From positions 2,257,501 to 2,321,500 of the forward strand of contig NZ_CP019602.1 in NCBI RefSeq assembly GCF_001661675.2: 64,000 bases of DNA. Reading direction: 5' to 3'. This DNA comes from Croceicoccus marinus (lineage in GTDB: Bacteria > Pseudomonadota > Alphaproteobacteria > Sphingomonadales > Sphingomonadaceae). How positions within the stretch are numbered: the stretch's first letter is position 1; every line of letters begins with the position of its first letter. Of the stretch, positions 3,221 to 48,336 are shown piece by piece. The position numbers and the translations under genes are program-made. The notes beneath the pieces were generated by a model. That model was not told the origin of the DNA and did no database searches. It saw nothing but the letters and a program-made list of their open reading frames with translations.

Positions 3221-3427
3221 ATGTCAGACGAACCGATGCGCAGCCGCAAGCGCCCTGAATGGGCCGCCGGACTGCGCCAGCTGTACGACTCGGTCGTCGA
3301 GGAACCCTTGCCGGATACGTTCAGCGATCTCTTGTCCAAGTTCGACGACAATGATGACGCCGCGAAGGTCGCAAGCGAACAGAGCCAATCTTCGGATCGG
3401 ACGCCGCCCAAGGGTAAAGGCGCCTGA
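3221..3427 (+). CDS. nepR: NepR anti-sigma factor
   Basis: Small acidic protein of 68 residues from the ATG at 3221, chosen because AGGA lies just upstream. An in-frame ATG at 3188 would add 11 residues. The central segment PEWAAGLRQLYDSVVEEPLP followed by DTFSDLLSKFDD matches the NepR core helices, which wrap around EcfG or, after phosphorylation, PhyR. In unstressed cells NepR holds EcfG inactive. The stop codon overlaps the ecfG start by one base (TGATG), so anti-sigma and sigma are translationally coupled. Confidence 0.93.
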   Translation: MSDEPMRSRKRPEWAAGLRQLYDSVVEEPLPDTFSDLLSKFDDNDDAAKVASEQSQSSDRTPPKGKGA

Positions 3428-4110
3428 TGGCCCATCGTTCCGACGCTGCGAAGGGCAGCGAAGCCGATGCCGACGCCGACGACGGCGTCAATGACACCCA
3501 CAGCAGCGAACCGCCGATGAGCGAGGAAAAGCGCGCCCGCGAGTTCAAGCGCGAGCTAACCGAAGTGATCCCACATCTTCGCGCCTTCGCGCGCGGCCTT
3601 TGCGGCCGTCCCGACCTAGCCGACGATCTGGTGCAGGAAGCGCTGATGAAAGCATGGGCCGCGCAGGAGCGTTTCCAGCCCGGCACGTCGATGCGCGCCT
3701 GGACCTTCGTGATCCTGCGCAACGCCTATCTGACCGACATGCGCCGCAACCGTTTCCGTGCCGATTACGACGAGACGGTGGCCGAACGCATCCTGACAGC
3801 ACCCGCCGGACAGGAAGGCCCACTGCACCTGTCGGACATGCACCGCGCGCTGCTGACCCTTCCGCCCGAACGGCGCGAGGCGCTGCTGCTCGTGGGCGCG
3901 GGCGGCTTCAGCTATGAGGAAGCGGCAGAGATCTGCGGCTGCGCCGTGGGCACGATCAAGAGCCGGGTGGGCCGCGCCCGGTCGGCGCTGAACGCGATGC
4001 TGGACGACGGCGATATTCCGCAGCGTTCTACCAGCGACGCAGTTGCGCACAACGCAATCATGGGCGAACTCGACGACATGGCCGAACCACAGGTAAACGG
4101 GAACAACTGA
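3427..4110 (+). CDS. ecfG: EcfG-family general stress RNA polymerase sigma factor
   Basis: Sigma-70 ECF protein of 227 residues. Region 2 includes DLADDLVQEALMKAW and MRAWTFVILRNAYLTDMRR, which bind core polymerase and the -10 element. Region 4 includes FSYEEAAEICGCAVGTIKSR, the helix-turn-helix for the GGAAC -35 element. The first 30 residues are an acidic low-complexity extension, so initiation at the internal ATG at 3517 (MSEEKRAREFKREL) is possible. The ORF start at 3427 overlaps the nepR stop. It presumably directs transcription from the two EcfG promoters in this window, including its own. Confidence 0.95.
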   Translation: MAHRSDAAKGSEADADADDGVNDTHSSEPPMSEEKRAREFKRELTEVIPHLRAFARGLCGRPDLADDLVQEALMKAWAAQERFQPGTSMRAWTFVILRNAYLTDMRRNRFRADYDETVAERILTAPAGQEGPLHLSDMHRALLTLPPERREALLLVGAGGFSYEEAAEICGCAVGTIKSRVGRARSALNAMLDDGDIPQRSTSDAVAHNAIMGELDDMAEPQVNGNN

Positions 4111-34577: not shown

Positions 34578-37142
34578 TCAATCGGCGGGCGCCGCCTTTC
34601 CCCCGTAGAGCGCGTCCGCCGCCAGGGCCAGGAACATGTAGTTCGTTGCCCCGCCGCCCATCACATATTCGCCCTGCTGCCAGAAATAGGGCCATTCCTT
34701 AAGCTCGGGCAAATCCGGCCGCACGAGATTGGTGCCTGAAATGACGCCCCCCGGGATATACGACCAGTCGGCCCGGTTGACGCCATAGGCCACGGTCGCG
34801 GATTGCGCGCCGACGCCCGACACGAAGCTGGCGCGGTTTTCCCCCGGATGGACGCCAAGCACGAAGTTCAGCGCGCTCAAGAAGCCGTCCGTCGACGTGG
34901 CTTCGGGCCAGCCCTTGTGGAAGAACCATTGGCGCACGCCAAGCGACTGGATGGTCCAGCCCGCACCCCAGATTTCGGGTTCGTACGGGACGCCATAGGG
35001 GCTGTCAGTGCGGGCGCTCTGCTCCACCTTGCGCTGATGTTCGGCGACCGCCGCTGCCAGCCGCTGGCGAAAGCCCGCGGGCAGGCGATTCTCGATTGAT
35101 GCCAGCCGCCATCCGCTGTCGGCAATATCCTCGATGATCGCGCCCTCCATCGCGGCAAGCTGCGCGATATAGGCCTCGTCTCCGGTCGATTGCGCAAGCT
35201 CCGCCAGCGCGAAGGTCTTGTTCGATACGTTCTGCGATCGGTCCAGCGCCTGCGCCGCGATGGCGCTTGCGGCGTCGATGGCCTCCTGCCCCAGCGGCGA
35301 CCCCTTGGCCCGCATCACCCGGCCCGCCGCAGCTAGCCCGCCGGCGACATAGAGCTCGCGGTCGGGATTATCCTCGGTAAAGACCCAGCGGTCGTCCCAC
35401 GCGATCGGATTGCCGCTGGTGTCCAGGCCGAGGCCATCGACGGGCTTTCTAGAGATATTATCGGTGTGGTTCGCCGCGTCCCCCAGCATGACATAGGCGC
35501 GCAGGCTTGGCGTGATGATGCCGCGGTACAGCCTGCCCAGCGAGCGATAGCCGCCCAGCACGCTGAGAAGCCCATGCTCGATCTGCTGGACCGCGTCATT
35601 GACGCCGTCCGGGTCGTGGATCTCGACCAGCCGGTTCGCCTGGTCGATGGTGGTCGCGTCATAATCGAGGTCGAATTCCTCGACCATCTTGGCGAGCATC
35701 CAGGTCGTGCCGATCTGCGATTCCACGCGCAGATCGTAGTCGCCCGCGTCATGCCACCCGCCGCGGTCGAGCCCGGGCACCATGTCGCCCGGCTCGTACC
35801 CGGTCAGCGTGGAGGGTCCCTGAACGTACCCGTCGATATGGTTCAGCCCGGTCGGGGCCATCAACGCATCGTCTAGGTGGTCGAGTCCGTGCCAGATCCG
35901 GTATTTCTCGTTCACGCGCATGTGACACATCTGCACGGGCAGGAAATATTCCAGCGTCGGCTGCCAGGCGTGGCGCGAATAGACCAGCGGATCGATGCGG
36001 AACGTGTTCGAGGTCGCGCCGCCGTACTCGATCTCGTACAGGCCGGGCACCTTAACCGCGCTGAAGTCCAGCAGCGCATAATCATAGCGCAGGAAGTCGC
36101 CCCATTGGTCGGGCACGGCCGACAGTACCGGCTCGCGGCCCTGCGCAGTCAGGCGGTAGAGCGTCGCCTCGCCTGCAGTGGCGCTGCCGGCGGCCGTCTC
36201 TATCACCGCGCGCTTGGGCTGGGCGGGCGCGTAGCCAAGCTGCGAGACCTGGATGACCGGCTGATAGCTCCAGTCGGCCACGGTCTTCGGCGTGACGATC
36301 CACTCCACCGCGTTTTTGGTCGCGCCGGCGGGGATCGGCGTGCGGACGATGTACCAGCCGTTGTTATGCGCCGATCGCCCGTCGATCAGCTGCAGCTCGC
36401 CCGCTCCGACATTGCGGAAGCTGATGCGCTGCAATGCGCTTTCAGGCGCGACGGTCAGCAGCTGGCCGCTCGCCAGCGGCGCGGCGAGCGCCTGATCGTT
36501 GGGATCCTGCACCGGCCCATTCGCCTGGACATTGCGCGGAACGGCCACCGTCCCGCCGCTTGCCGTGACCATCGGACCTTCGGGCTGGCGGTTGAACAGC
36601 CCGGCAGCGTCATCCATCAGCCAGGCCTTGCCGAACAATTCGCCCGGAAAAAGCTCCATGTTGAAGCCCACTCGCCCGACCCATTCGGGCGGCAGTGGCT
36701 TGTCGAGATCGACCGTGATGCGAAACGCACCTCCGTCGGACGGCGTGACGGACACGGTATAGGCCAGATCGAGATCGGGATAGAAGATCGGGTTGAAGCC
36801 GCGTCCGTCTTTGGCAGGATCGGGGTAGGACAGCGTCTGCCGGATGGTGCCGGTCGCCGGATCGATGGTCCGCTCGCCCGCGGAGATCGGCATGGGGGAC
36901 CATTGGCCGGGCTCGGGCTCAAGCCGCACGTCTCCGTTGGCGGCAACCCTGCGGCCGTGCTGTATGATCGTGACGCCGGTCTGGTGGCCATCGGGATAGA
37001 TGTCGTCGAACACGATCACGTCCAGCGCATGCGCGCTGAGATAGCCCTTGTCCTCGTCGAGCGTCAGTTCGGCCTGCTTATCCGGTCCGGCTGCCAGCAG
37101 CAGCGGTGCGCCTGCCAGCAGCAGAAGCTTGCGATATGTCAC
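34578..37142 (-). CDS. GH9 family glycoside hydrolase (endoglucanase-type) with long N-terminal extension
   Basis: 854 residues with a signal peptide (MTYRKLLLLAGAPLLLAAGP). The first 300 or so residues form an undefined beta-rich region. An Ig-like CelD-N domain follows (YQPVIQVSQLGYAPAQPKRAVI), then the GH9 (alpha/alpha)6 barrel. The base motif is WHDAGDYD (near 465), and the C-terminal segment with the catalytic acid is QQGEYVMGGGATNYMFLALAAD (acid Glu near 823). It would cut beta-1,4-glucan or mixed glucans, with GH3 finishing the oligosaccharides. No operator like that before GH3 was seen upstream. Confidence 0.88.
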   Translation of the reverse strand: MTYRKLLLLAGAPLLLAAGPDKQAELTLDEDKGYLSAHALDVIVFDDIYPDGHQTGVTIIQHGRRVAANGDVRLEPEPGQWSPMPISAGERTIDPATGTIRQTLSYPDPAKDGRGFNPIFYPDLDLAYTVSVTPSDGGAFRITVDLDKPLPPEWVGRVGFNMELFPGELFGKAWLMDDAAGLFNRQPEGPMVTASGGTVAVPRNVQANGPVQDPNDQALAAPLASGQLLTVAPESALQRISFRNVGAGELQLIDGRSAHNNGWYIVRTPIPAGATKNAVEWIVTPKTVADWSYQPVIQVSQLGYAPAQPKRAVIETAAGSATAGEATLYRLTAQGREPVLSAVPDQWGDFLRYDYALLDFSAVKVPGLYEIEYGGATSNTFRIDPLVYSRHAWQPTLEYFLPVQMCHMRVNEKYRIWHGLDHLDDALMAPTGLNHIDGYVQGPSTLTGYEPGDMVPGLDRGGWHDAGDYDLRVESQIGTTWMLAKMVEEFDLDYDATTIDQANRLVEIHDPDGVNDAVQQIEHGLLSVLGGYRSLGRLYRGIITPSLRAYVMLGDAANHTDNISRKPVDGLGLDTSGNPIAWDDRWVFTEDNPDRELYVAGGLAAAGRVMRAKGSPLGQEAIDAASAIAAQALDRSQNVSNKTFALAELAQSTGDEAYIAQLAAMEGAIIEDIADSGWRLASIENRLPAGFRQRLAAAVAEHQRKVEQSARTDSPYGVPYEPEIWGAGWTIQSLGVRQWFFHKGWPEATSTDGFLSALNFVLGVHPGENRASFVSGVGAQSATVAYGVNRADWSYIPGGVISGTNLVRPDLPELKEWPYFWQQGEYVMGGGATNYMFLALAADALYGGKAAPAD

Positions 37143-37398
37143 CCGGTGTTTCCTCCCCCGATCGTTGCATCGGAACCTAGCGTGCCAGGCGCGTTATGCA
37201 AAAGCGGAAACGCCAATGGATGCCGTAACGTCGACTGCAATTCGGCCTTCGGCATTCCGGTTGGATGAAGGGCTTACCCGGAGGGAAATGACGGCTGGCC
37301 TGGGCATCTCGGTATATGGACCGGAGACGGCCTGCCCATGGAATTGATTGCGGACTTCCGGGATCGATCATCCGGAAGCTGACGGTCGGCGACCGGCG

Positions 37399-37800
37399 TT
37401 AGGTCCGGTCGATATCGACCTCGGTGCGGGTCAGTTCGATTTCCCTGCTGTCGGTGACGGTGCGTTTCGTGCGGCGGAGGTGGATTTCCTCGCGCAGTAC
37501 CATTTCGATCGTGACCTTCAGCCGTTCTTCGACGACCGGGATGATGGTGACGTCGCCCTCTTCCCGGATTTCCGGATGCCGATCGACGACACGCCCCACG
37601 GCTACGCGCTCGACCGAGAGATCCTCCTGCGCCAATTCTTCGGCGACGGTCACGGATTCGGTCACCGGGCGCGTCGTTACGGACACCGAATGGCCATCGA
37701 TTGGCCGCTTCCCGACCACCAGGCGCTCCTCGACGACGGGGATGGTGACGGTCTGGTCGCCCGGCTTCCCGGTTTGCGGATCGATGTTGTCGGCTGTCAT
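37399..37800 (-). CDS. YsnF/DUF2382 stress-associated protein
   Basis: 133 residues from the ATG at 37800 (the frame is open to 37863, but that part is upstream hairpin sequence). Two half-repeats of the DUF2382 type are visible: VTIPVVEERLVVGKRPIDGH and VTIIPVVEERLKVTIEMVLR. The protein is highly charged, with no membrane segment. In other bacteria such proteins are stress-induced, with unknown biochemistry. It lies downstream of a related PRC-barrel gene in the same orientation. Confidence 0.8.
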   Translation of the reverse strand: MTADNIDPQTGKPGDQTVTIPVVEERLVVGKRPIDGHSVSVTTRPVTESVTVAEELAQEDLSVERVAVGRVVDRHPEIREEGDVTIIPVVEERLKVTIEMVLREEIHLRRTKRTVTDSREIELTRTEVDIDRT

Positions 37801-37826
37801 GAAAATGTCCTTCGGTTCACGCGAAC

Positions 37827-37857
37827 GGGCCGGATGTCGATTGGCGACATCCGGCCC
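37827..37857. terminator. Perfect hairpin between two DUF2382 genes
   Basis: GGGCCGGATGTCG (37827-37839) pairs over 13 bp with CGACATCCGGCCC (37845-37857), loop ATTGG. It follows the PRC-barrel gene stop (- strand) by about 25 bases. There is no T-tract, so it could attenuate or stabilise the mRNA rather than fully terminate. Confidence 0.6.
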
Positions 37858-37881
37858 GCGCATTAGTCGCTCTGGCGACGA

Positions 37882-38553
37882 TCAGCGGCGGTCGCGGCCC
37901 CGGCTGTCGTTCGCATTCTTGTCGACGTCGACTTCCGTGTGGCGCACGGTTTCCTCGACATGCTCGACGCGGTCCTTGCCGGTCTTCTTCAGCACGACCT
38001 CGTCGGTGACGACCGCATCCTTGGCGACGACGAGTTCCTCGTCATGCTCGGTCATGGTCACCGTCTTGCCGTCGAGCAGCTTGTCGGCTTCGCGGCCCGA
38101 GACGCGGCGGTCCACTTCGCGGGTGTCGACGCTGACCGTCTCGTCGCGCAAAGCGACGTCTTCGGACACGGTATCGGACACGACCCGCGACCTTACGCCG
38201 ATGGACTTGCCATGGTCAGCGGTGCGCTTGCCGATTGCGACGCGTTCCTCGACCACGGGAATGACTTCCTCGGAAACTGCGGCGCCGCCTTCCTTGGCAT
38301 GGGCCATCGATGCCTCGCCATAGACAACGGCGTCATCATGGATTTCCAGCGGGCCGACGGCGCAACAACGGCCGTCTTCCAGGCGAACCGCCTCGACGCG
38401 GTTCTTGTCCCTACCAACGAGCAGGTCGGTAATGATGCCGTATTTCTCGCCGGTCGGGCTGACCAGCGGACGGCCACGGATATCCTGCGATTCGTGCTCG
38501 AGTTCGTAATTGTCAAGCGAGTCGAGATGTTCGTAGCGTGTGTCATGACGCAT
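37882..38553 (-). CDS. PRC-barrel plus DUF2382 (YsnF-like) stress protein
   Basis: 223 residues. An N-terminal PRC-barrel (about 20-85: DIRGRPLVSPTGEKYGIITD to GPLEIHDDAVVYG) is followed by a DUF2382 domain (about 100-210: VIPVVEERVAIGKRTADHG and HVEETVRHTEVDVDKN). The C-terminus is very acidic and basic, with no membrane segment. Such proteins are typical general-stress or desiccation proteins. No exact EcfG site was found upstream, so stress control is inferred only from the family. Confidence 0.82.
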   Translation of the reverse strand: MRHDTRYEHLDSLDNYELEHESQDIRGRPLVSPTGEKYGIITDLLVGRDKNRVEAVRLEDGRCCAVGPLEIHDDAVVYGEASMAHAKEGGAAVSEEVIPVVEERVAIGKRTADHGKSIGVRSRVVSDTVSEDVALRDETVSVDTREVDRRVSGREADKLLDGKTVTMTEHDEELVVAKDAVVTDEVVLKKTGKDRVEHVEETVRHTEVDVDKNANDSRGRDRR

Positions 38554-38612
38554 GGTTAAATTCCTTCGTTCTTGGGGGGAGGTGCATTGCCGCCCGAATT
38601 GGCGGCAAGGCT

Positions 38613-39083
38613 TCAGCTCACCATTTCGATGTCGGTTGCGTAGATGTAGCTTTCGGTACCGGCGGGGATCTCGGCCATGACGCCGGCGGGCAGTGCCTCG
38701 CTTGCGCTCATCACCGTGCCGTCGAGGTTCACGAGCGAGCCGACATTAATGTCGAATTCGCCTTCCGTGGCGGTACCGGGCGTCCGGGTCTGATCGAACA
38801 GCACCAGCATGTCCTGGCCGTTGGCGTCGACGCGAAAGGCCATGTCGCCAGTCAGCTCGGTAACGCGCACCTGGTCGAGGTTGACCGTATCGCCAATGGC
38901 CATCGCGGTCATGGCGGTACCGGCCATGGGCTCGGTCGCGACGGTGTCGTTGTCGGTATATTCGACGACGTCACCATCGTCGTTATCCAGCAGCCACCAG
39001 GCCAGCAGGATTATGGCCACGACGGCCAGGATAATCCAAAGCCACTTCTTGTCGGATTTCTCTTTTACCGGGATCTCTGCCAT
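38613..39083 (-). CDS. Membrane-anchored protein of unknown function
   Basis: 156 residues. A short basic N-terminus and one membrane helix (about 13-32, KWLWIILAVVAIILLAWWLL) are followed by an acidic linker and a beta-rich domain (VNLDQVRVTELTGDMAFRVDANGQDMLVLFDQ), which resembles OB-fold/BOF-type or lipocalin-like small domains without a certain match. It precedes the PRC-barrel gene by 59 bases in the same orientation and may share its transcript. Confidence 0.7.
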   Translation of the reverse strand: MAEIPVKEKSDKKWLWIILAVVAIILLAWWLLDNDDGDVVEYTDNDTVATEPMAGTAMTAMAIGDTVNLDQVRVTELTGDMAFRVDANGQDMLVLFDQTRTPGTATEGEFDINVGSLVNLDGTVMSASEALPAGVMAEIPAGTESYIYATDIEMVS

Positions 39084-39152
39084 CGTGTTTTCTCCATTTT
39101 GAATCGATATGTTCTGGCGGCGCGCAACGATTGCGCTCGCCGCATAAGGTGA

Positions 39153-39437
39153 TCAGCGCCAGCTGGCGGTTTCGCCGGGCCAGTAGCGCAAGGGCCGATC
39201 GCCCCTGGCAAGGCCCGCGGCGCGGGGGTTCATGCAATTGTCCTGCCGGTCGCTTGCGCAGATCTGGTATTCGGTGCCGCCCACCCGCACGACCTGCACC
39301 CTTCCGTCGGGACCGCGCGTCACAATTTCGGGGGACGCCGCCTTGAAATTGGCGGGCTTGTCCTGCGCGGAGACACTGGTCGAAGCCGATAATAAAATCG
39401 CAGCTGACGCTATTATCGATATACGGTTATCGACCAT
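39153..39437 (-). CDS. Small secreted protein of unknown function
   Basis: 94 residues with a signal peptide (MVDNRISIIASAAILLSAST, cleavage near VSA-QDK). The mature part has two cysteines (QICASDRQDNCMNP), suggesting a disulfide-bonded periplasmic protein, and ends RPLRYWPGETASWR. Similar short Cys-pair proteins occur in sphingomonads without known function. The DNA upstream (39438-39700) is AT-richer than its neighbours and shows no gene. Confidence 0.65.
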   Translation of the reverse strand: MVDNRISIIASAAILLSASTSVSAQDKPANFKAASPEIVTRGPDGRVQVVRVGGTEYQICASDRQDNCMNPRAAGLARGDRPLRYWPGETASWR

Positions 39438-39701
39438 ATCCCCTCTGCCATTCAGTATTTATCTTGTATTCATCTAAAGCAAACAGCGTATGCTTTCGTT
39501 CCGGACCGATCATAATATATTTCCAGAATTGGAATTGCTTGACCCGTTTTTTTGTGAAGAGCAGTCATTTTGGAATTCGGCCGCTCACGGTTGGGCTCAA
39601 AATGAGCTATGGCCGGAATATAAACTTGCAACAGATCGCATCGGCGCAATGCGGAATTGGCCGCGCAATAGCGTTGCCATTCGCTCCAAAGGCCCCGCCC
39701 T

Positions 39702-40196
39702 TTACGGCAGGGCACCAACGGAAGAACGTGCCAATTCGATCGCGCATCTGTCCGCACCGCAAATGTCGTCCAGCATCTCGCCCAGCCAGACGGCGTCGCG
39801 GTCCCTGCCCAGTGTTTCGGCCAGGTCCTTGGCGGTGCCAAAGCCTGCAATGCCGTAGTGGCTCATCCGCCTGAACTGTGCGATCGCGCTTATGGCGCGC
39901 AAGTCGTCGCCGATGTCGTCTGCCAGCACATGCTCGCGGGCTTCCTCGACAAGGCCCTCCATGCCCTTGCATCGTTCCCCGCCAAACTCGGCAATGTCGC
40001 AACCTTCGATCAACCGCTCGAGCACGATCATGTGATTGCCGATGCCTTGCACCGCGTCCGAAAGCATGCCCGCCAGATCTTCGCCGCGAACCCTTGCCGC
40101 CATCAGCCTCACGATCTGTCTCATCTGGTCATTGGCTGACAGGAGATGTTGAAGTTCGTCGAGATAGAGATCGTCGAGGGTCTTCGCAGCGCTCAT
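39702..40196 (-). CDS. DUF892 ferritin-like protein (YciE/YciF family)
   Basis: 164 residues. The start TLDDLYLDELQHLLSANDQM and the four-helix pattern with E-x-x-H-type positions (EAREHVLADD, MSHYGIAGFGTAKDLAETLG) match DUF892 ferritin-like proteins, which bind two metal ions and are induced by general stress in many bacteria. It fits the stress theme of the two preceding genes. No EcfG consensus was found in the upstream 300 bases. Confidence 0.82.
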   Translation of the reverse strand: MSAAKTLDDLYLDELQHLLSANDQMRQIVRLMAARVRGEDLAGMLSDAVQGIGNHMIVLERLIEGCDIAEFGGERCKGMEGLVEEAREHVLADDIGDDLRAISAIAQFRRMSHYGIAGFGTAKDLAETLGRDRDAVWLGEMLDDICGADRCAIELARSSVGALP

Positions 40197-40787
40197 TGTC
40201 GATCCTTGTGACTGTGGATGGGTTACTCGGGATGTGGGCCTGAAGATGTGTGCATGGGGATGGGACCCTAGGCCGTGAACTGGCGGGGGCAGAACCTCTC
40301 AGGCTAATTGCAAAGAAGACTCGACTTCGATTTTCTGCCGCGACCAAATCGATCAGGCTAACGTGATCGCGTTCTTCGGTCGAAACGATCGTCTGGCATG
40401 TTTCGAGGACGGCCCGCCCTGTCCGGAACCGTAATCCGGGCCATCAATCCGCGAACATTTCATTCTTTAATTCAATGTTTTCAGGCCGGTTACGTATTGA
40501 TCCGAAATCGCTGTCCCAAACCCGGCAGCTCTCTTGTTATCGCGTCTTGAGACGACAGCCTTAATCATGATCAAGATTGCCGCATTTGTTTCGATTTGCT
40601 GCGCTGGAACAATCGATCGGATCGGGGATTTGATCTTACGAACTCTGTTTTCGGCCCCGCAAAAAGGCAGATTTCGTAAATGCCAGCCTGCTGCGTATGG
40701 CCGCGCAACAAGGCTTTCGGATTGGGCCTGTTCTATAGAAATTCCGCCGAACTTGGTTTATCCAGCCAACTCCAGGATGCTTCGCAA
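40197..40787 (+). other. Long intergenic region, no recognised gene
   Basis: About 590 bases between the DUF892 gene and a divergent Crp-type regulator. It is markedly more AT-rich than the rest of the window in its central part (40440-40680). Short open frames here have no ribosome-binding site or family resemblance. A GGAAC at 40606-40610 lacks a CGTT at the right distance. It may hold both divergent promoters. Confidence 0.5.
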
Positions 40788-41510
40788 TTGCAAAACGCCT
40801 TTGTCAGAAACCTGTCCCGGCGCGTTCAGCTTTCGAACGATGATGTGGGCCTGATAGAGGCAGCCTGTTCGACCGCCCGCCGCCTGCCCCCGAAGATGGA
40901 TCTGATCTGCGAGGGCGACCGGCCCGGCCCGGTCTTCCTGTTCCTTGAAGGGTGGGGTTGCCGCTACAAGATCCTGCCCGAAGGTACGCGCCAGATCCTG
41001 GCGTTCATGCTCCCCGGCGATTTCTGCGACATGCACACGAATGTCCTGGACGAGATGGATCATTCGATCGCGACGGTAACCTCTGCGCTGGTCGCAACCA
41101 TAGAGCGCCCCCGGCTGGATAATGTGATGGAGAGCAGTCCGGCGATCACGCGGGCATTCTGGATGATGCAACTGGTCGATCTGGGCGTGGCGCGATCGTG
41201 GATCGCCAGCATGGGGCGGCGGTCCAGCGAAGCGCGTGTCGCCCATTTGATGTGCGAGATGTATTTCAGGCTGAAATCGACCGAGCAGGTAGACGAAGAC
41301 GCTTGCGCCATGCCGCTAAGCCAGATCCTTCTGGCCGATGCGCTGGGCATGACACCGGTCCATCTGAACCGTGTGCTGCGCGAATTCAGGAAGCGCGGCG
41401 TGATGTATCTGACCAAGGGCACCCTGGTCATTGCCGACATCAGGGAATTGATCCGAATCGCCGGTTTCGACGATACCTATCTGCATCGCCGATTGAACGA
41501 GGCGGCGTGA
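40788..41510 (+). CDS. Crp/Fnr-family transcriptional regulator (first of two paralogues)
   Basis: 240 residues from TTG 40788, chosen because it aligns end to end with the paralogue at 43447-44169. The frame is open to an ATG at 40680, but the extra residues look untranslated. The N-terminal cupin domain includes EGDRPGPVFLFLEGWGCRYKILP and TRQILAFMLPGDFCD. It lacks the Arg-Ser/Thr signature for cAMP and the FNR cysteines. The C-terminal winged helix includes LSQILLADALGMTPVHLNRVLREF. It probably responds to a redox, gas or membrane signal, and sits before a desaturase gene. Confidence 0.82.
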   Translation: MQNAFVRNLSRRVQLSNDDVGLIEAACSTARRLPPKMDLICEGDRPGPVFLFLEGWGCRYKILPEGTRQILAFMLPGDFCDMHTNVLDEMDHSIATVTSALVATIERPRLDNVMESSPAITRAFWMMQLVDLGVARSWIASMGRRSSEARVAHLMCEMYFRLKSTEQVDEDACAMPLSQILLADALGMTPVHLNRVLREFRKRGVMYLTKGTLVIADIRELIRIAGFDDTYLHRRLNEAA

Positions 41511-41730
41511 CATCAGGCCGCCTTTCGTCCGATCGGATTGATCGTCATCAAGCGCACCGCAGCCGGTTGTCATTATAATGGTGGCAGCAAGCGGGTATTC
41601 ACGCGAATGGCACTAGCAATGCGCTTCCAAACCCGTACCGGGCCACGAAGCGAAGCATGGAACAATGCCCGGCCACGGGCGAGGAGTTGAAGATCATTAT
41701 CGTATCCAATCGCATGTCAGGCAGTTTCGC

Positions 41731-42765
41731 ATGCTGATGGCCCGTTCCGACGACGACGCGGTCTTCATGAAGGAACTGGCCAGGCAGCTGTCGGCCTATG
41801 CCCGGCCCGCCACGTTTCGCAGCGTTTTCGAACTTGTCCTGACGCTGTCCCTGTTCGTTGGCCTGTGGGCCGCGATCTATGTCGGCCTGCAGGCAGGCTA
41901 TTGGGCTGCCTATGTTCTTTCCATTCCGGCGGCTGGCTTGATGCTGCGGCTTTTCATCATCCAGCATGATTGCGGCCACGGCGCCTTTTTCGCCAGCAAG
42001 CGCGCGAACGACCGGGTCGGGGCCGTGCTGGGCGTGATGACGCTGACGCCCTATGCGGTCTGGAAAAAGGCCCATGCGCGGCACCATGCGACCTCTGGCA
42101 ATCTGGCGCGGCGCGGGACTGGCGATATCGACACCTATACCGTGGCGGAATATCGGTCGATGTCGCGCATTCGGCGCTTTGCCTATCGTAGCTACCGCCA
42201 TCCCGCGGTGATGTTCGGGATCGGGCCGGCGTTCCTGTTTCTGTTCCGCAACCGATTGCCGGTGGGCGACATGAAGGGTGGGTGGAAGCCGTGGATCAGC
42301 GCCATGGGCACCAATGGCGCGATCGTCGTCCTTATCGTGCTGATGTCGCTGCTGCTGGGGGTCGAGGCGGTTTTCCTGATCCATTTCCCGATCATCCTGC
42401 TTGCGGCATCGTTCGGCGTCTGGCTGTTCTTCGTCCAGCACCAGTTCGAGGAAACCCACTGGTCGGACGATGACGACTGGAGCTTTCACACCGCTGCGAT
42501 ACGCGGCAGTTCCTTTTACGCCCTGCCGCGCGCGCTGCACTGGCTCAGCGGAAATATCGGCTATCACCACATCCATCATCTTGTCAGCCGCATACCGTTC
42601 TATCGGCTGCCGCAGGTCATGAAGGATCACCCCGTGCTGGGCGAAATGGGCACGGTCACGATCCGCCAGAGCGTTAGCGGCATTAGGCTCGCGCTATGGG
42701 ACGAGGAACGGCAGCGGCTGATATCGTTCCGGACCGCCAAGAGGTTGGAAACCGCCCGTTCCTGA
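41731..42765 (+). CDS. Membrane fatty acid desaturase
   Basis: About 344 residues from the ATG at 41731 (an ATG at 41665 is possible). The three histidine boxes of di-iron membrane desaturases are intact: HDCGHGAFF, HARHHATSG and YHHIHHLVSR, the last in the order expected for acyl-lipid or acyl-CoA delta-type enzymes. QHQFEETHW gives an additional His. Four membrane helices flank the boxes. It introduces a double bond into membrane acyl chains, and the flanking Crp-type genes suggest environmental control. Confidence 0.88.
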   Translation: MLMARSDDDAVFMKELARQLSAYARPATFRSVFELVLTLSLFVGLWAAIYVGLQAGYWAAYVLSIPAAGLMLRLFIIQHDCGHGAFFASKRANDRVGAVLGVMTLTPYAVWKKAHARHHATSGNLARRGTGDIDTYTVAEYRSMSRIRRFAYRSYRHPAVMFGIGPAFLFLFRNRLPVGDMKGGWKPWISAMGTNGAIVVLIVLMSLLLGVEAVFLIHFPIILLAASFGVWLFFVQHQFEETHWSDDDDWSFHTAAIRGSSFYALPRALHWLSGNIGYHHIHHLVSRIPFYRLPQVMKDHPVLGEMGTVTIRQSVSGIRLALWDEERQRLISFRTAKRLETARS

Positions 42766-42901
42766 GGGGGGGCCGGATCGCTCGCGGTCGGGTTCGATCA
42801 AAGTGCGCTGCTCGCATGTCCATGGCAAAAAGGCATGGGGCGGCGCCCGGTTGCGGTCACTGATCGGGCTCGGTCGGTTCGGAAATCTGGCGGCCGGCAA
42901 A

Positions 42902-42922
42902 CCAGGTTTTTTTGAAACCTGG
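42902..42922. terminator. Hairpin after the desaturase gene
   Basis: CCAGGTTT (42902-42909) pairs with AAACCTGG (42915-42922), with a T-rich loop. It could end transcripts of the desaturase gene (+) or of the convergent small gene (-). No downstream T-run is present. Confidence 0.4.
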
Positions 42923-42979
42923 CGGCACGATGGCCCAAGGGTGAAGGACCCGATGCGCCCGTAGCTCGGCGGACGGTGG

Positions 42980-43270
42980 TCAGTTCGATTCCGAGCTATC
43001 CGTATCGATTTTCAGGCTCTTGTGAATGGCGCTCAAGATCGCGATCGACCTGTCCGTCGCCGGGGACCTTTCGCCCGAATCGACCGACATCTCCTCGATC
43101 ACGTCGAACGCCACCTCGATAACCTCGACGGCGTCGGCAGAGGTGATGATGGCGCGCGCAACAAGCGCATGGATGAGGCTTTCGACCAGCAGCACGGCTG
43201 CCTGGCCATTGGAGTCACCTTCGGCGGGAAAGGATTTCGATCCGGGATCGTCGTTGTGTGCGCTCGTCAT
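42980..43270 (-). CDS. Small hypothetical protein
   Basis: 96 residues, acidic, with a helical centre (AVLLVESLIHALVARAIITSADAVEVIEVAFDVIEEM) and polar ends. No signal peptide, membrane segment or known motif was seen. It lies between the desaturase gene and the second Crp-type gene, on the opposite strand. Confidence 0.5.
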   Translation of the reverse strand: MTSAHNDDPGSKSFPAEGDSNGQAAVLLVESLIHALVARAIITSADAVEVIEVAFDVIEEMSVDSGERSPATDRSIAILSAIHKSLKIDTDSSESN

Positions 43271-43446
43271 CTGTCTGCTCCGGTCCAGGCGAGAGCAATT
43301 CGATCTCCCAGCCGCCGGAGCCTGATGCGGTTCGACGATGGCATCCCTTTATCCGGCTTCGGAACGGCGTGGCAATTACCCAAATCAACTTTCGACAATA
43401 ATCTTGAACAATATAAAAGCTGAATCGGATGTGGGAGAAGTACTCC

Positions 43447-44169
43447 ATGTCCAATCGCTTTCTCGATAAGCTCCTCACATTCGGCACGCTCGATGCCGAG
43501 ACGGCCAGCGCGGTCGAGGCTGCGACGTCGCAGCCAAGATCGCTGCCGGCCAAGCACGATCTGATCCGCGAGGGGGACCGCCCGGGCCCCGTGTTCGTGG
43601 TTCTCGAAGGGTGGGCTTGCCGTTACAAGATACTGCCGAGCGGAACGCGGCAGATCCTGGCGTTTCTGATGCCGGGCGATTGCTGCGATCTGCATATCGG
43701 CCTGCTGGCGGAAATGGACCACGGCATCCAGACCGTCACCTCCGCCAGGGTCGCGACAATCTCCCGGGAATTGATGGACGAACTGATGGACCATCACCCC
43801 TCGTTCGAGCGGGCCATGTATATCACCCAGCTTGTCGACGAGGGTACGATGCGTTCATGGATCACGAGCATGGGCCGCCGCACGAGCATCGAGCGCGTGG
43901 CGCATCTGATGTGCGAACTCTATCTTCGGGGGCGTCACATCGGTCTTTCCGACGCACCCCACTTCGCGCTCCCGCTGTCGCAGATCATGCTGGCGGACGC
44001 CTTGGGAATGACGCCCGTCCATCTGAACCGGGTGCTGAAGGAGTTGCGATTGCACGGGGCCATGGCGCTCAAACGCGGCAGCCTCTCCATCACCGATCCG
44101 GCGAAACTGACACGTATCGCCGGCTTCGACGACAACTACCTCCATCGCCATCTTCGCGGCGCAGGCTGA
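43447..44169 (+). CDS. Crp/Fnr-family transcriptional regulator (second paralogue)
   Basis: 240 residues from the ATG at 43447 (GGAG 9 bases upstream; an ATG at 43429 is also in frame). It closely parallels the regulator at 40788-41510: EGDRPGPVFVVLEGWACRYKILP, TRQILAFLMPGDCCD, the signature MDHGIQTVTSARVATI, and the helix-turn-helix LSQIMLADALGMTPVHLNRVLKEL. It has neither a cAMP-binding signature nor an iron-sulfur cysteine set. The pair flanks the desaturase gene, suggesting duplication and shared or opposing control. Confidence 0.87.
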   Translation: MSNRFLDKLLTFGTLDAETASAVEAATSQPRSLPAKHDLIREGDRPGPVFVVLEGWACRYKILPSGTRQILAFLMPGDCCDLHIGLLAEMDHGIQTVTSARVATISRELMDELMDHHPSFERAMYITQLVDEGTMRSWITSMGRRTSIERVAHLMCELYLRGRHIGLSDAPHFALPLSQIMLADALGMTPVHLNRVLKELRLHGAMALKRGSLSITDPAKLTRIAGFDDNYLHRHLRGAG

Positions 44170-44201
44170 CCTGTCGTGTCACAAGGCGCGGTCGTCCGGG
44201 G

Positions 44202-44741
44202 TCAGGCCGGGGCGGCAGGCATGCTCACCACGACGCCCCATCCTTTCGCTTCCAGGCCATGGGTCGTCTGGAACTCGGCATCCAGTATCGATCCCAGGCG
44301 CCCGATGAGCGTGCTGCCTTCGCCGCCGCCAGTATCGGAATGGGCGACATGACCGATCCCATTGTCCCGGACGTCGAGGCGAACGCGGCCCTGGTCCTGG
44401 CCGAAGACAAGACTGATCCGGCCGCCCTGCCCTGACGGAAAGGCGTATTTGAGCGTATTGATGATCAGTTCGCTGGCGATCAGGACCAGTGCGCGGCGTT
44501 TTTCCTGCGACAGGCTGATCGGCTCCACATTGACCTCGCACACGATGTGCCTGGCTTGTCCGAAAATGGCCGCCAGCCCGTCGACAACGTCCGCGAGCAT
44601 CGCGGAACATTCGACGTCGCAAATTTCGCCATCGTCCTGGGCGAGCCTTGCAAACAGGCTCGACAGGGCCTCGATCTCGCGCGTCGCGCGGTCGCTCAGC
44701 CATTCCCTTGAAGGGTTCGACGCCACATTCGCCAGCGAGGA
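44202..44741 (-). pseudogene. 3' part of a HisKA_2/HWE-type histidine kinase gene split by an IS
   Basis: 179 residues remain, beginning SSLANVASNPSREWLSD and holding the dimerisation helix end, the N-box (LIASELIINTLKYAF), the G1-like DNGIGH and the G2-like GGGEGSTLIGRLGSILDAEF of a small soluble kinase. The frame stays open on the - strand to 44894, but its first 39 or so codons come from the IS. Joining it to 46052-46234 and dropping the IS plus one 3-bp duplication gives one continuous 240-residue kinase. Class members phosphorylate PhyR-type regulators. Confidence 0.85.
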
Positions 44742-44744
44742 CGC
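44742..44744 (+). repeat. Target-site duplication, left copy (CGC)
   Basis: The 3-bp direct repeat CGC next to the left inverted repeat matches CGC at 46052-46054. Its removal together with the IS restores the kinase reading frame, which supports it despite the short length. Confidence 0.6.
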
Positions 44745-44766
44745 CAGCTGGACACCCGCAACAACC
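44745..44766 (+). repeat. Left terminal inverted repeat of the IS
   Basis: 22 bp beginning CAGCTGGACACCCGC. It is the reverse complement of 46030-46051 except for one base (C versus A at the 18th position from the outer end). Confidence 0.8.
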
Positions 44767-44894
44767 ATGATTTTGGCGCCGTGATTGGGCGGGTTGCGGG
44801 GATTGCCGCGAGAGACGCTATTGGAAAGGTTGGATTGGCCAATTTTCGGTGATGTCTTTGGGCTTCCGGGCCTTTTTGTCGATTTCAGGCGCAC

Positions 44895-45974
44895 CTATCC
44901 CGTGGCTGCACATCGCTCATGGAAGATCAGGCGGTCGAAGTTGTAGGCGAGATTAGCCAGCGTGAGTTTTGCCTGCGCCCTGGCGAGCCCGATGGTCCGG
45001 ATGAATAGACCATAGCGATTCTTCTGGTGCGCAAAGACGTGCTCCACCTTGGCCCGCACGGCCGATTTCGCGGCATTGGCGCGCGCGATGCGCTCGGGCA
45101 TCGGTTTGCCCTTGGGCTTTCTGCGATGGATGCGGCTCGTGAGCATGTTGCGCGCCAGCCATGTCTCGTTCTTCTGGCTGCGATAGGCGCTGTCGGCCCA
45201 GACATCGCCAGCGGTGTTGGCGGTGTCGATCACCCGGCGCAACTGGCGCCCGTCGCTGTCGGCGGCCGATGTCACCGCTGCTTTGCGAATAAAGCCGAAG
45301 CGCCGGTCGATGCTGATATGCGACTTGTAGCCAAACACGGGTGTGGCGATCTGCGGCAGCGGGGTGCCGTCGGGACGATAGCGGACCTTGCCGCCGATCT
45401 TCAACGTCCAGCGTGCATCGACATCCTTCTGGTGAGCCTTGTTCGGCTTGCTGCGCCAGATCTGCCTGGCTGACTTGCCGGCTTTGATCGCGGCCTTCTC
45501 GTCCTCGGTGTTGCGCTGCTTGGGCGCGGGCACCAGCGTGGCATCGACGATCTGACCGCCCATCGCCAGGTATCCTGCCTCGCGCAGTTGCTGTTCGAAC
45601 GCCTGCATCAACGCCTCAAGCGTGCCGCTCTCGGTGAGCCGGTTGCGATAGTGACGGATGGTGTTCTCGTCCGGCATCGCGCCGCCAAGGTCGAAGCCGA
45701 AGAAGCGCATCCAGCTCAGGCGATCTCTGATCATGAACTCCATGCGCGCATCCGACAGATTATGCTGCGCCTGAACCACCAGCACTTTGAACATCGCCAC
45801 GGGATCGAAGGCCGGGCGACCGCCCTTGGCGCCATCGCTATAGCCAAGCCCGCGGGTCAGAAGCGGCCGGAAGCGTTCAAACTCAACCGTGCCCGCCAAA
45901 ACCTCCAGCGGATCGCCGTCCTTGCTCAGCCGGTCCAAGTGCTCCGCAAGCGAAAACAGGCTGTGTGGCTGCAT
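44895..45974 (-). CDS. IS5-family transposase (DDE type)
   Basis: 359 residues from the ATG at 45974, preceded by GGAAGGAG. The N-terminal segment AMFKVLVVQAQHNLSDARMEFM and then RLSWMRFFGFDLGGAMPDENTIRHYR are typical of the IS5 group. The DDE core includes GGQIVDATLVPAP, KSHISIDRRFGFIR, DVWADSAYRS and the C-terminal KVEHVFAHQKNRYGLF. No frameshift or stop is seen, so it is probably functional. Confidence 0.92.
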   Translation of the reverse strand: MQPHSLFSLAEHLDRLSKDGDPLEVLAGTVEFERFRPLLTRGLGYSDGAKGGRPAFDPVAMFKVLVVQAQHNLSDARMEFMIRDRLSWMRFFGFDLGGAMPDENTIRHYRNRLTESGTLEALMQAFEQQLREAGYLAMGGQIVDATLVPAPKQRNTEDEKAAIKAGKSARQIWRSKPNKAHQKDVDARWTLKIGGKVRYRPDGTPLPQIATPVFGYKSHISIDRRFGFIRKAAVTSAADSDGRQLRRVIDTANTAGDVWADSAYRSQKNETWLARNMLTSRIHRRKPKGKPMPERIARANAAKSAVRAKVEHVFAHQKNRYGLFIRTIGLARAQAKLTLANLAYNFDRLIFHERCAATG

Positions 45975-46029
45975 CGATGCTCTCCTTCCAATGCCCCGAG
46001 TGAATCACAGCACGTGCCTCAAAGCGAGG

Positions 46030-46051
46030 GGTTTTTGCGGGTGTCCAGCTG
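46030..46051 (-). repeat. Right terminal inverted repeat of the IS
   Basis: 22 bp, partner of 44745-44766 with one mismatch; the outer end is CAGCTG in either orientation. It is followed directly by the CGC duplication. Confidence 0.8.
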
Positions 46052-46054
46052 CGC
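46052..46054 (+). repeat. Target-site duplication, right copy (CGC)
   Basis: Partner of 44742-44744, directly outside the right inverted repeat. Confidence 0.6.
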
Positions 46055-46234
46055 CAGGTTCCTGGCCCTATGGATCGCGTCAGCGCGCCAAAGCGCCTGT
46101 CTTTCATCGTCGCCCAGGATATGCGCCACGATCGGACTTTGCTGTGAAGGAGCGAAAAGCTGCAGGATGCGCAGCTCCATCGCTTCGGAAGACCCTTGAA
46201 TATCACACGCGATTTTCGCCGCCCCGTCGTCCAT
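46052..46234 (-). pseudogene. 5' part of the IS-split histidine kinase gene
   Basis: Encodes the first 61 residues, from an ATG at 46234 preceded by GGAG. They end in ADAIHRARNLA, which resembles the HWE/HisKA_2 H-box (H-R-x-K/R-N-x-L); His55 would be the phospho-acceptor. In the present DNA the frame runs 11 codons into the IS and stops at 46019, giving a truncated 71-residue product without an ATPase domain. It matches the downstream half at 44202-44741. Confidence 0.8.
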
Positions 46235-46512
46235 TGGAATTCTCCAATTGCCCCGAGGATCGTATCAAACCGTGCAATAAACTTATTATGATGGATCAAT
46301 ATTTGGAATTATTGACAAATTAAGCATGTTTGGTGGCTTTGGAGGGGGCTTTCCTAATTTACCGGAACTCGAGACGTTCCGCGCAAGGCACACGCTATCG
46401 ATCAATCCGATGCTGGCATATCCAACGCCGATCGCTATCCCGAAACCAAATCGCTGCACCAGCCAGCGTCCGAAAGACAAATCACCCCCAGAAGCTGTTT
46501 TCCTGCCTCCGC

Positions 46513-48336
46513 CTATTCGACGGTCACCGACTTCGCCAGGTTGCGCGGCTGGTCCACGTCGGTGCCCTTTGCGACGGCGACGTGATAGGCCAGCAACTGG
46601 ACCGGCACGGCATAGACCAAAGGCGCGATCAGCGGGTGGACCTTGGGCATCTCGATGGTGGCCAGGCAGCCCTCGCCCGCTTCCTCGATGCCTTGCGCGT
46701 CGCTGATCAGCACGATCTTGCCGCCGCGGGCGCGCACTTCCTGCATGTTGGACACGGTCTTTTCGAACAGCGGCCCCGAAGGGGCAAGCACCACCACCGG
46801 CACCAGATCGTCGATCAGCGCGATCGGGCCATGCTTCATCTCGCCGCTCGCATAGCCCTCGGCGTGGATATAGCTGATTTCCTTCAGCTTCAGCGCCCCT
46901 TCCAGCGCCAGCGGATAGTCCGGCCCGCGCCCCATGTAGAGCACGTCTCGCGCGGGGGCGATCAGGTGCGCCATGGCCGCGATGTCATCGTCATGGTTAA
47001 GCGCGGCATTCAGGCATGCCGGTGCTTCCAGCAGATGATCGACGATGGCGCGCTCTTCCGCGGCGCTCAGCCTGCCCTTCTTCACTGCGAAATGCGCGGC
47101 CAGCGCGGCCAGCACGGCAAGCTGGCAGGTGAACGCCTTGGTCGATGCCACGCCGATCTCCGGCCCGGCATGCGTCGGCAGCAGCAGGTCCGCCTCGCGT
47201 GCCATGGAACTGGTCGGCACGTTGACGACGACCGCGATGGTCTGACCCGCCTGCTTGCAATGGCGAAGCGCGGCGAGCGTGTCGGCCGTCTCGCCGCTCT
47301 GCGAGATGAACAGCGCCAGCCCGCCGGGTTCCAGCACTGGATCGCGGTAGCGGAACTCGGACGCCACATCGATGTCGACGGGCACGCGGGCGAAGGTCTC
47401 GAACCAATATTTCGCGACCATTCCGGCATAGAAGCTGGTGCCGCATGCGACGATGGTGATGCGGTTGATCCGGGTAATGTCAAAGTCGATCTGCGGCAGA
47501 GCGACGGTCCGTTCAAGCTGGCGGACATAGCTGCGCAGGGTCTGCGCCACCACGGTCGGCTGCTCGAAAATTTCCTTCTGCATGAAGTGGCGGTAATTGC
47601 CCTTTTCGATCGCTGCCGCGCTGGCGCCCGATTTGGTGACGGGCCGCTCGACCGGATTGCCATCGGCGTCGAAGATCTGCGCGCCATCGCGGGTGACGAT
47701 GACCCAGTCGCCTTCTTCCAGATAGGTGATGTCCTGCGTCAGCGGCGCCAGTGCCAAGGCATCCGACCCCAGATAGGTCTCACCATCGCCATAGCCCACC
47801 ACCAGGGGCGAGCCGAGCCGCGCGCCGATCAGCATGTCGGGCGCCTGGCGAAATGCCATCGCCAGGGCGAACGCACCGCGCAGCATCGGCAGCACTTCGC
47901 GCACCGCTTCTTCGGGCGACATGCCCTGCTCTATCCGCAGCGAGAGGAGGTGGACCACGACCTCGCTGTCGGTCTCGCTTTCGAAGGTGCGGCCCTGCCC
48001 GCGCAGTTCCTCGCGCAGGGGGCGGAAATTCTCGATGATGCCATTGTGCACCAGCGCCACTTCCGGCGTGGCGTGGGGATGGGCATTCGCCTCGGTCGGG
48101 GCGCCATGGGTGGCCCAGCGGGTATGCGCGATGCCGACCTCGCCCGCCGCGGGGCGGGCGGCGACTTCGCGCGCCAGATTGGCAAGCTTGCCCTCGGCCC
48201 GGCGGCGGATCAGCGCGCCGTCGTGGATCGTGCAGATCCCCGCGCTGTCATAGCCGCGATATTCCATGCGCTTCAGCCCGTCGATCAGGCGCTCCGCTAC
48301 GGGCTGCGTGCCCACGATACCGATAATACCGCACAT
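46513..48336 (-). CDS. glmS: Glutamine-fructose-6-phosphate aminotransferase (isomerizing)
   Basis: 607 residues, the normal length. The N-terminal glutaminase uses Cys2 (MCGIIGIVG) with TRWATHG and HNGIIENF. Two SIS sugar-isomerase domains follow (CGTSFYAGM, SQSGETADT; MGRGPDYPLALEGALKLKEISYIHAEGYASGEMKHGPIALI). The C-terminus DVDQPRNLAKSVTVE is canonical. It makes glucosamine-6-phosphate for cell-wall and envelope sugars. It lies downstream of glmU and a small gene in the same orientation. Confidence 0.97.
   Translation of the reverse strand: MCGIIGIVGTQPVAERLIDGLKRMEYRGYDSAGICTIHDGALIRRRAEGKLANLAREVAARPAAGEVGIAHTRWATHGAPTEANAHPHATPEVALVHNGIIENFRPLREELRGQGRTFESETDSEVVVHLLSLRIEQGMSPEEAVREVLPMLRGAFALAMAFRQAPDMLIGARLGSPLVVGYGDGETYLGSDALALAPLTQDITYLEEGDWVIVTRDGAQIFDADGNPVERPVTKSGASAAAIEKGNYRHFMQKEIFEQPTVVAQTLRSYVRQLERTVALPQIDFDITRINRITIVACGTSFYAGMVAKYWFETFARVPVDIDVASEFRYRDPVLEPGGLALFISQSGETADTLAALRHCKQAGQTIAVVVNVPTSSMAREADLLLPTHAGPEIGVASTKAFTCQLAVLAALAAHFAVKKGRLSAAEERAIVDHLLEAPACLNAALNHDDDIAAMAHLIAPARDVLYMGRGPDYPLALEGALKLKEISYIHAEGYASGEMKHGPIALIDDLVPVVVLAPSGPLFEKTVSNMQEVRARGGKIVLISDAQGIEEAGEGCLATIEMPKVHPLIAPLVYAVPVQLLAYHVAVAKGTDVDQPRNLAKSVTVE

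Follow-up and report, generated by a model that had tools for sequence, protein, structure and literature searches.

An IS5-family insertion sequence splits a small predicted histidine kinase gene in Croceicoccus marinus

Results

We report on a small predicted histidine kinase gene in Croceicoccus marinus, which lies in two halves on the same strand of the genome on either side of an insertion sequence (IS). All positions refer to the window, the whole 64-kb stretch of DNA that was analysed. By comparing the element with its copies elsewhere in the genome, and the rejoined gene with natural homologues, we arrive at a reading that we consider highly probable: a complete IS5-family element recently split an intact gene for a soluble kinase of 243 residues at an AGCT site, and autophosphorylation has most likely been lost. 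The split gene and the element comprise the following features.

44202 to 44749, minus strand: 3' half of the kinase gene, with the rest of the histidine helix pair, the ATPase domain (HATPase_c_2) and the stop codon
44746 to 44749, no strand: first copy of the AGCT target duplication (seven of the eight own-genome copies have the same borders)
44750 to 46046, minus strand: IS5-family insertion sequence, 1297 bp, with its transposase on the kinase strand
44750 to 44766, no strand: terminal inverted repeat, 17 bp, one mismatch at position 13 (from the flanks of own-genome copies)
44895 to 45974, minus strand: IS5-family transposase, 359 aa (NCBIfam NF033581, Pfam DUF772 and DDE_Tnp_1)
46030 to 46046, no strand: terminal inverted repeat, 17 bp, one mismatch at position 13 (from the flanks of own-genome copies)
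46047 to 46050, no strand: target duplication AGCT, copy 2 (from comparison of own-genome IS copies)
46047 to 46234, minus strand: 5' half of the kinase gene, coding for residues 1-63 with the phospho-acceptor His55, 92% identical to the homologue P0001 (alignment A1)

The transposase scores 204.8 bits against NF033581 (transpos_IS5_4), above the curated cut-off of 140, and the element thus belongs to the IS5 family, as the initial annotation had proposed in describing two same-strand halves of one gene around an IS5-type element. The genome (4.1 Mb in three contigs) carries eight near full-length copies, the window copy included; three of these, again with that of the window, are 100% identical over exactly 1297 bases with a score equal to the self-match, and a fourth is 95% identical. 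Because the copies match over exactly 1297 bases and diverge outside them, the ends can be placed at GGACACCC...GGGTGTCC, positions 44750 to 46046, which replaces the earlier estimate of 1307 bp (44745 to 46051). The single mismatch reported between the inverted repeats stands, while their length of 22 bp falls to 17 bp, the longer reading having included, on each side, the palindromic AGCT and one further base. The proposed 3-bp CGC duplication gives way to the 4-bp AGCT; CGC is a chance neighbour just outside, and it repeats beside the duplication because the target reads GCGCAGCTGGCG. With matched 17-bp inverted repeats and AGCT on both sides, the element is complete.

An identical pair of four bases stands directly outside the element in seven of the eight own-genome copies (AGCT in six, ATCT in one). 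In the remaining copy, L002, the flanks differ (ACCT/AGCT), and a further genome of the genus contains two related copies flanked by ACCT/ACCT (L077) and AGCC/AGCT (L081). From the flanks of the copies compared, the target duplication is 4 bp long and most often AGCT. An IS fragment of 87% identity lies about 200 bp downstream of L002 (G000:C3:217285-218581), and recombination between copies or a deletion may account for its flanks. The element matches a Croceicoccus marinus plasmid record at 90.7% over 88% of the query, and a literature search for an AGCT target duplication in the IS5 family found nothing. Since three copies in the same genome are identical, the insertion is probably recent.

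Joining the flanks at AGCT gives a single frame of 243 codons, in which the empty site reads HRARNLA-QLA-SSLANVA. The initial annotation had joined HRARNLA to SSLANVAS in a product of 240 residues; its frame was right and its length was not, Q62-L63-A64 having been omitted, and the two joins are nine bases apart, so that each is in frame. An uninterrupted homologue, as such a reconstruction calls for, exists in nature. The intact homologue P0001 is also 243 residues long, is identical to the joined flanks at 220 of 243 positions without gaps (90% over the C half, 92% over the N half), and runs contiguously across the junction as HRARNLAQLAASLANVAS; a homologue of about 40% identity from another genus reads HRARNMAQLAGSLANVAE there. 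Because P0001 spans the junction, the joined protein has an intact kinase as its match.

The element lies between codons 62 and 63 (CAG-CTG, which holds the AGCT target), seven residues past His55 and not exactly at the H-box, as had been supposed. In the structure model the histidine helix is predicted to span residues 42-71, and the cut falls inside it, so that the segment with the phospho-acceptor is now parted from the ATPase domain, as first described. What remains open on the 5' side is a frame of 71 codons (46019 to 46234), which holds kinase residues 1-63 followed by eight residues coded by the IS. On the 3' side a frame of 230 codons (44202 to 44894) has its start in the IS and the ATPase half of the kinase at its end; its first codon, GTG, follows the transposase stop codon TAG without a gap and in the transposase frame, and another possible start, an in-frame ATG, lies within the IS some 20 bases from its border. 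To judge by the frame, the GTG would allow the ATPase domain to be translated to some extent. A sigma-70 scan of 44150 to 46520 gives a single weak site (46268 to 46239), just ahead of the kinase start and on the same strand, where shuffled sequences lead one to expect 0.6.

The intact relatives form a group that we call mini-kinases. Our alignment of them, A5, comprises 33 of the best 37 homologues from a list of 57 proteins (P0027, P0033, P0035 and P0040 were left out) and was made without the 20 weaker proteins and P0004 to P0007, so that its conservation counts describe the mini-kinase group and not all relatives. The HRxxN phospho-acceptor motif (H55, R56 and N59) is present in all 33 sequences, as are E155, N159, D190, G192 and G194 of the ATPase motifs (N-box and DxGxG). 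At the junction all 33 have Q62, followed at position 63 by Leu in 18 and Met in 15. The signature of the group is LWxADAxHRAxNxxQ, and about 41 residues precede the histidine helix in the structure model. Membership of the ATPase family is clear, HATPase_c_2 matching the C half with 35.6 bits and P0001 with 33.9 bits against a cut-off of 27.4.

The label HWE, which the initial annotation had attached to the kinase together with HisKA_2, is not borne out. HWE kinases are defined by a His in the N-box and by WxE in the G1 box. The mini-kinases have S154 in place of this His in 33 of 33 sequences, and WxE occurs in one, P0029, about 20 residues past the N-box and before the DxGxG box; the HWE kinase at 1069 to 2799 of the window, taken as a control, shows both HELATN and WRE. 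Neither Pfam HWE_HK nor HisKA_2 matches any of the 33 aligned mini-kinases at E ≤0.01, neither is reported for P0001 at E ≤1, and no histidine-domain model of Pfam matches either half of the split gene alone. In precomputed domain assignments the best 37 of the 57 homologues carry neither model, and at least one of the two is present in 14 of the 20 weaker ones.

Two neighbours of the kinase gene recur with it elsewhere.

42980 to 43270, minus strand: orphan small protein, 96 aa, no family match, divergent from the Crp gene
43429 to 44169, plus strand: Crp/FNR-type regulator (Crp1; Pfam)

Within about 1.5 kb of the mini-kinase gene there is a Crp-type gene at eight of eight loci and the gene of an orphan protein of about 100 residues at seven of the eight (the exception being G155), the window counted in both cases; none of seven control loci around more distant kinases has a Crp-type or small-protein gene at E ≤1e-3. 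The arrangement varies. At L040 to L043 and L112 the small protein and the kinase share a strand and diverge from Crp, at L111 Crp and kinase share a strand and the small protein diverges, at L045 the kinase precedes Crp on the same strand, and in the window kinase and Crp converge, with the kinase on the opposite side of Crp. A search with the small protein gives 361 homologues at E ≤0.001, and a Pfam domain is present in none of the 120 listed. The window contains two Crp-type regulators (40680 to 41510 and 43429 to 44169), about 57% identical, which flank the desaturase and small-protein genes.

Mini-kinases were found in eight genomes, that of the window included: six of 397 genomes of the family have one at >200 bits (next best 102 bits), and the order-level sample gives five of 396 at E ≤1e-40, two of them new, these counts being lower bounds with six or seven candidates scored per genome. 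Of the eight genes, that of the window alone is interrupted, and each of the remaining seven has an open frame. A search with the C half against 78 relatives returned mostly other kinases at 25-38% identity, from which only G014 stood out, and a scan of genome contigs with this half gave a single match, at a distant Spirochaetales locus. The small protein was detected in none of the 13 other genomes of the genus; against strict absence, P0068 places it in at least one genome named Croceicoccus marinus, and the window's protein has an 85% homologue so named. Kinase and small protein are thus, as far as these genomes tell, accessory in the genus. At four of four same-genus loci beside a putative glmS both are absent within about 12 kb, and the empty site could therefore not be shown in a close relative. 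Across the 12 window genes from 34578 to 46234, nothing but one Crp homologue (40%, at one of these loci) lies within that distance. The stretch from 39700 to 46300, beside the window's putative glmS, has a GC content of 0.59-0.63 against 0.66 for the window, and could be either an accessory stretch or a rearrangement.

The core of the general stress response is located in the same window, as the initial annotation had noted: PhyR (148 to 945), the HWE kinase (1069 to 2799) and an ECF-type sigma factor (3427 to 4110) whose position suggests EcfG. The HWE kinase, between PhyR and the sigma factor, has a CHASE domain. The suggested link of the split kinase to PhyR rests on the shared 64 kb and finds no support; PhyR is about 43 kb from the split gene, and all three stress-response genes are at least 40 kb away. 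Scanning for EcfG-type sites (GGAAC-N15-18-GTT) gave 12 matches where 3.24 are expected. Five of the 12 are clustered at the stress-response core, in a stretch of 3 kb (90, 121, 2869, 2951 and 2953), the nearest to the kinase are inside Crp1 (43642) and the desaturase gene (42705 and 42707), and there is none upstream of the kinase start.

Discussion

The comparison of IS copies and kinase homologues suggests a model for the loss of this kinase. A complete IS5-family element entered the AGCT site at codons 62-63 by ordinary transposition, probably in recent times, duplicating AGCT as it did so. Its target was the gene of a small, sensor-less predicted histidine kinase of the kind that recurs beside a Crp-type regulator and a protein of about 100 residues, and the strain can now make at most a 71-residue His fragment and a separate ATPase fragment. 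Since the cut lies mid-way in the predicted His55 helix, autophosphorylation has most likely been lost. Several observations weigh against this account. No C-half orthologue was found in the 13 other genomes of the genus (best match 1.5e-14, against 2.6e-29 for G014), and an intact allele of the species itself has for this reason not been seen. Three distant relatives outside A5 (P0004, P0005 and P0044) keep His-Arg but not N59. The locus comes from a single assembly, and an assembly error or a mixed population is possible.

It is a serious possibility, if somewhat short of an even chance, that the kinase was already dispensable and that the IS struck without phenotype. The gene is rare, being found in six of 397 family genomes (its own included; >200 bits, at most six candidates scored in each) and in none of 13 of the same genus, and the HWE and HisKA_2 models match the same 12 other places in its own genome. 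Both halves are nevertheless free of frameshifts and stop codons and keep, as read from the alignment, the residues invariant in A5, so that the gene was intact when hit.

That the kinase fed PhyR, so that its loss lowers the input to the general stress response, appears unlikely. Passages of PMC5964349 describe many HWE/HisKA2 kinases of Sphingomonas and Caulobacter as phosphorylating PhyR or hub regulators, which makes such a link conceivable though unsupported here, and the C half weakly matches the NCBIfam PhyK model (39.9 bits, against a cut-off of 750). Against it, the Pfam-scanned neighbours (37882 to 38553 and 39702 to 44169) include no response regulator, the recurrent neighbours are the Crp-type regulator and the orphan protein, and the kinase lacks an upstream EcfG-type site.

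It is very improbable that the split kinase still works, its fragments associating as a two-protein kinase with the ATPase fragment started in the IS end. Separated domains of EnvZ can complement each other in trans, the duplication of AGCT leaves both halves with their native residues (1-63 and 62-243), and the 3' half is open from the GTG described above; the break, however, falls within the predicted histidine helix and not between domains, so that neither fragment has a complete helix pair, and because the insertion looks recent the open frame says nothing about selection. The notion of two unrelated adjacent genes that resemble the halves, to which the lack of a histidine-domain match in either half might lend itself, has practically no chance of being right, being refuted by P0001 and other intact homologues, single proteins that span both halves, and by the joined flanks being in frame.

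Insertional knock-out of regulatory genes is common, and this case is nothing out of the ordinary, but the gene that was struck lies in a cluster, with a regulator and an orphan small protein, that has been little studied. Literature searches returned nothing on an IS in a histidine kinase of Croceicoccus and, by title among the papers listed, no IS-split HisKA_2-type kinase; judged in the same way, papers on Crp with HWE kinases in sphingomonads do not describe such a cluster. We propose tentatively, and with rather more doubt than confidence, that Crp-type regulator, orphan of about 100 residues and sensor-less EL346-like mini-kinase form an undescribed sphingomonad signalling module, of which this strain is a natural kinase-minus mutant. 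Within such a module the kinase would set the Crp output and have as its target either the small protein or a distant response regulator; the strain would serve as a natural null for the mini-kinase. Of use in themselves are the corrected IS borders and the AGCT target site, the warning that an apparent short duplication found by eye next to a palindromic target may arise by chance, and the indication of a mini-kinase family that goes unreported by the Pfam HisKA_2 and HWE models and recurs beside a Crp-type gene.

The element resembles other IS5-family elements, which have GG-ended inverted repeats and a short target duplication, in these traits as in its transposase score, and differs from IS5 itself in using AGCT-like sites in this genome where IS5 uses CTAR. 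The mini-kinases share the HRxxN H-box with HWE kinases such as that at 1069 to 2799, whereas their N-box reads SEL rather than HEL and HWE_HK is unmatched, both in 33 of 33. The closest known system is EL346, the blue-light histidine kinase 2 of Erythrobacter litoralis (PDB 4r39 and 4r3a), which a passage of PMC12148442 describes as an HWE/HisKA2 kinase. The A5 profile matches EL346 (4r39) at 4.9e-19 in an alignment that starts before the histidine, which points to homology through the His domain. The mini-kinase differs from EL346 in having neither a LOV nor another recognised sensor domain, nor a Pfam HisKA_2 match, and in profile and predicted fold it is closest to this enzyme.
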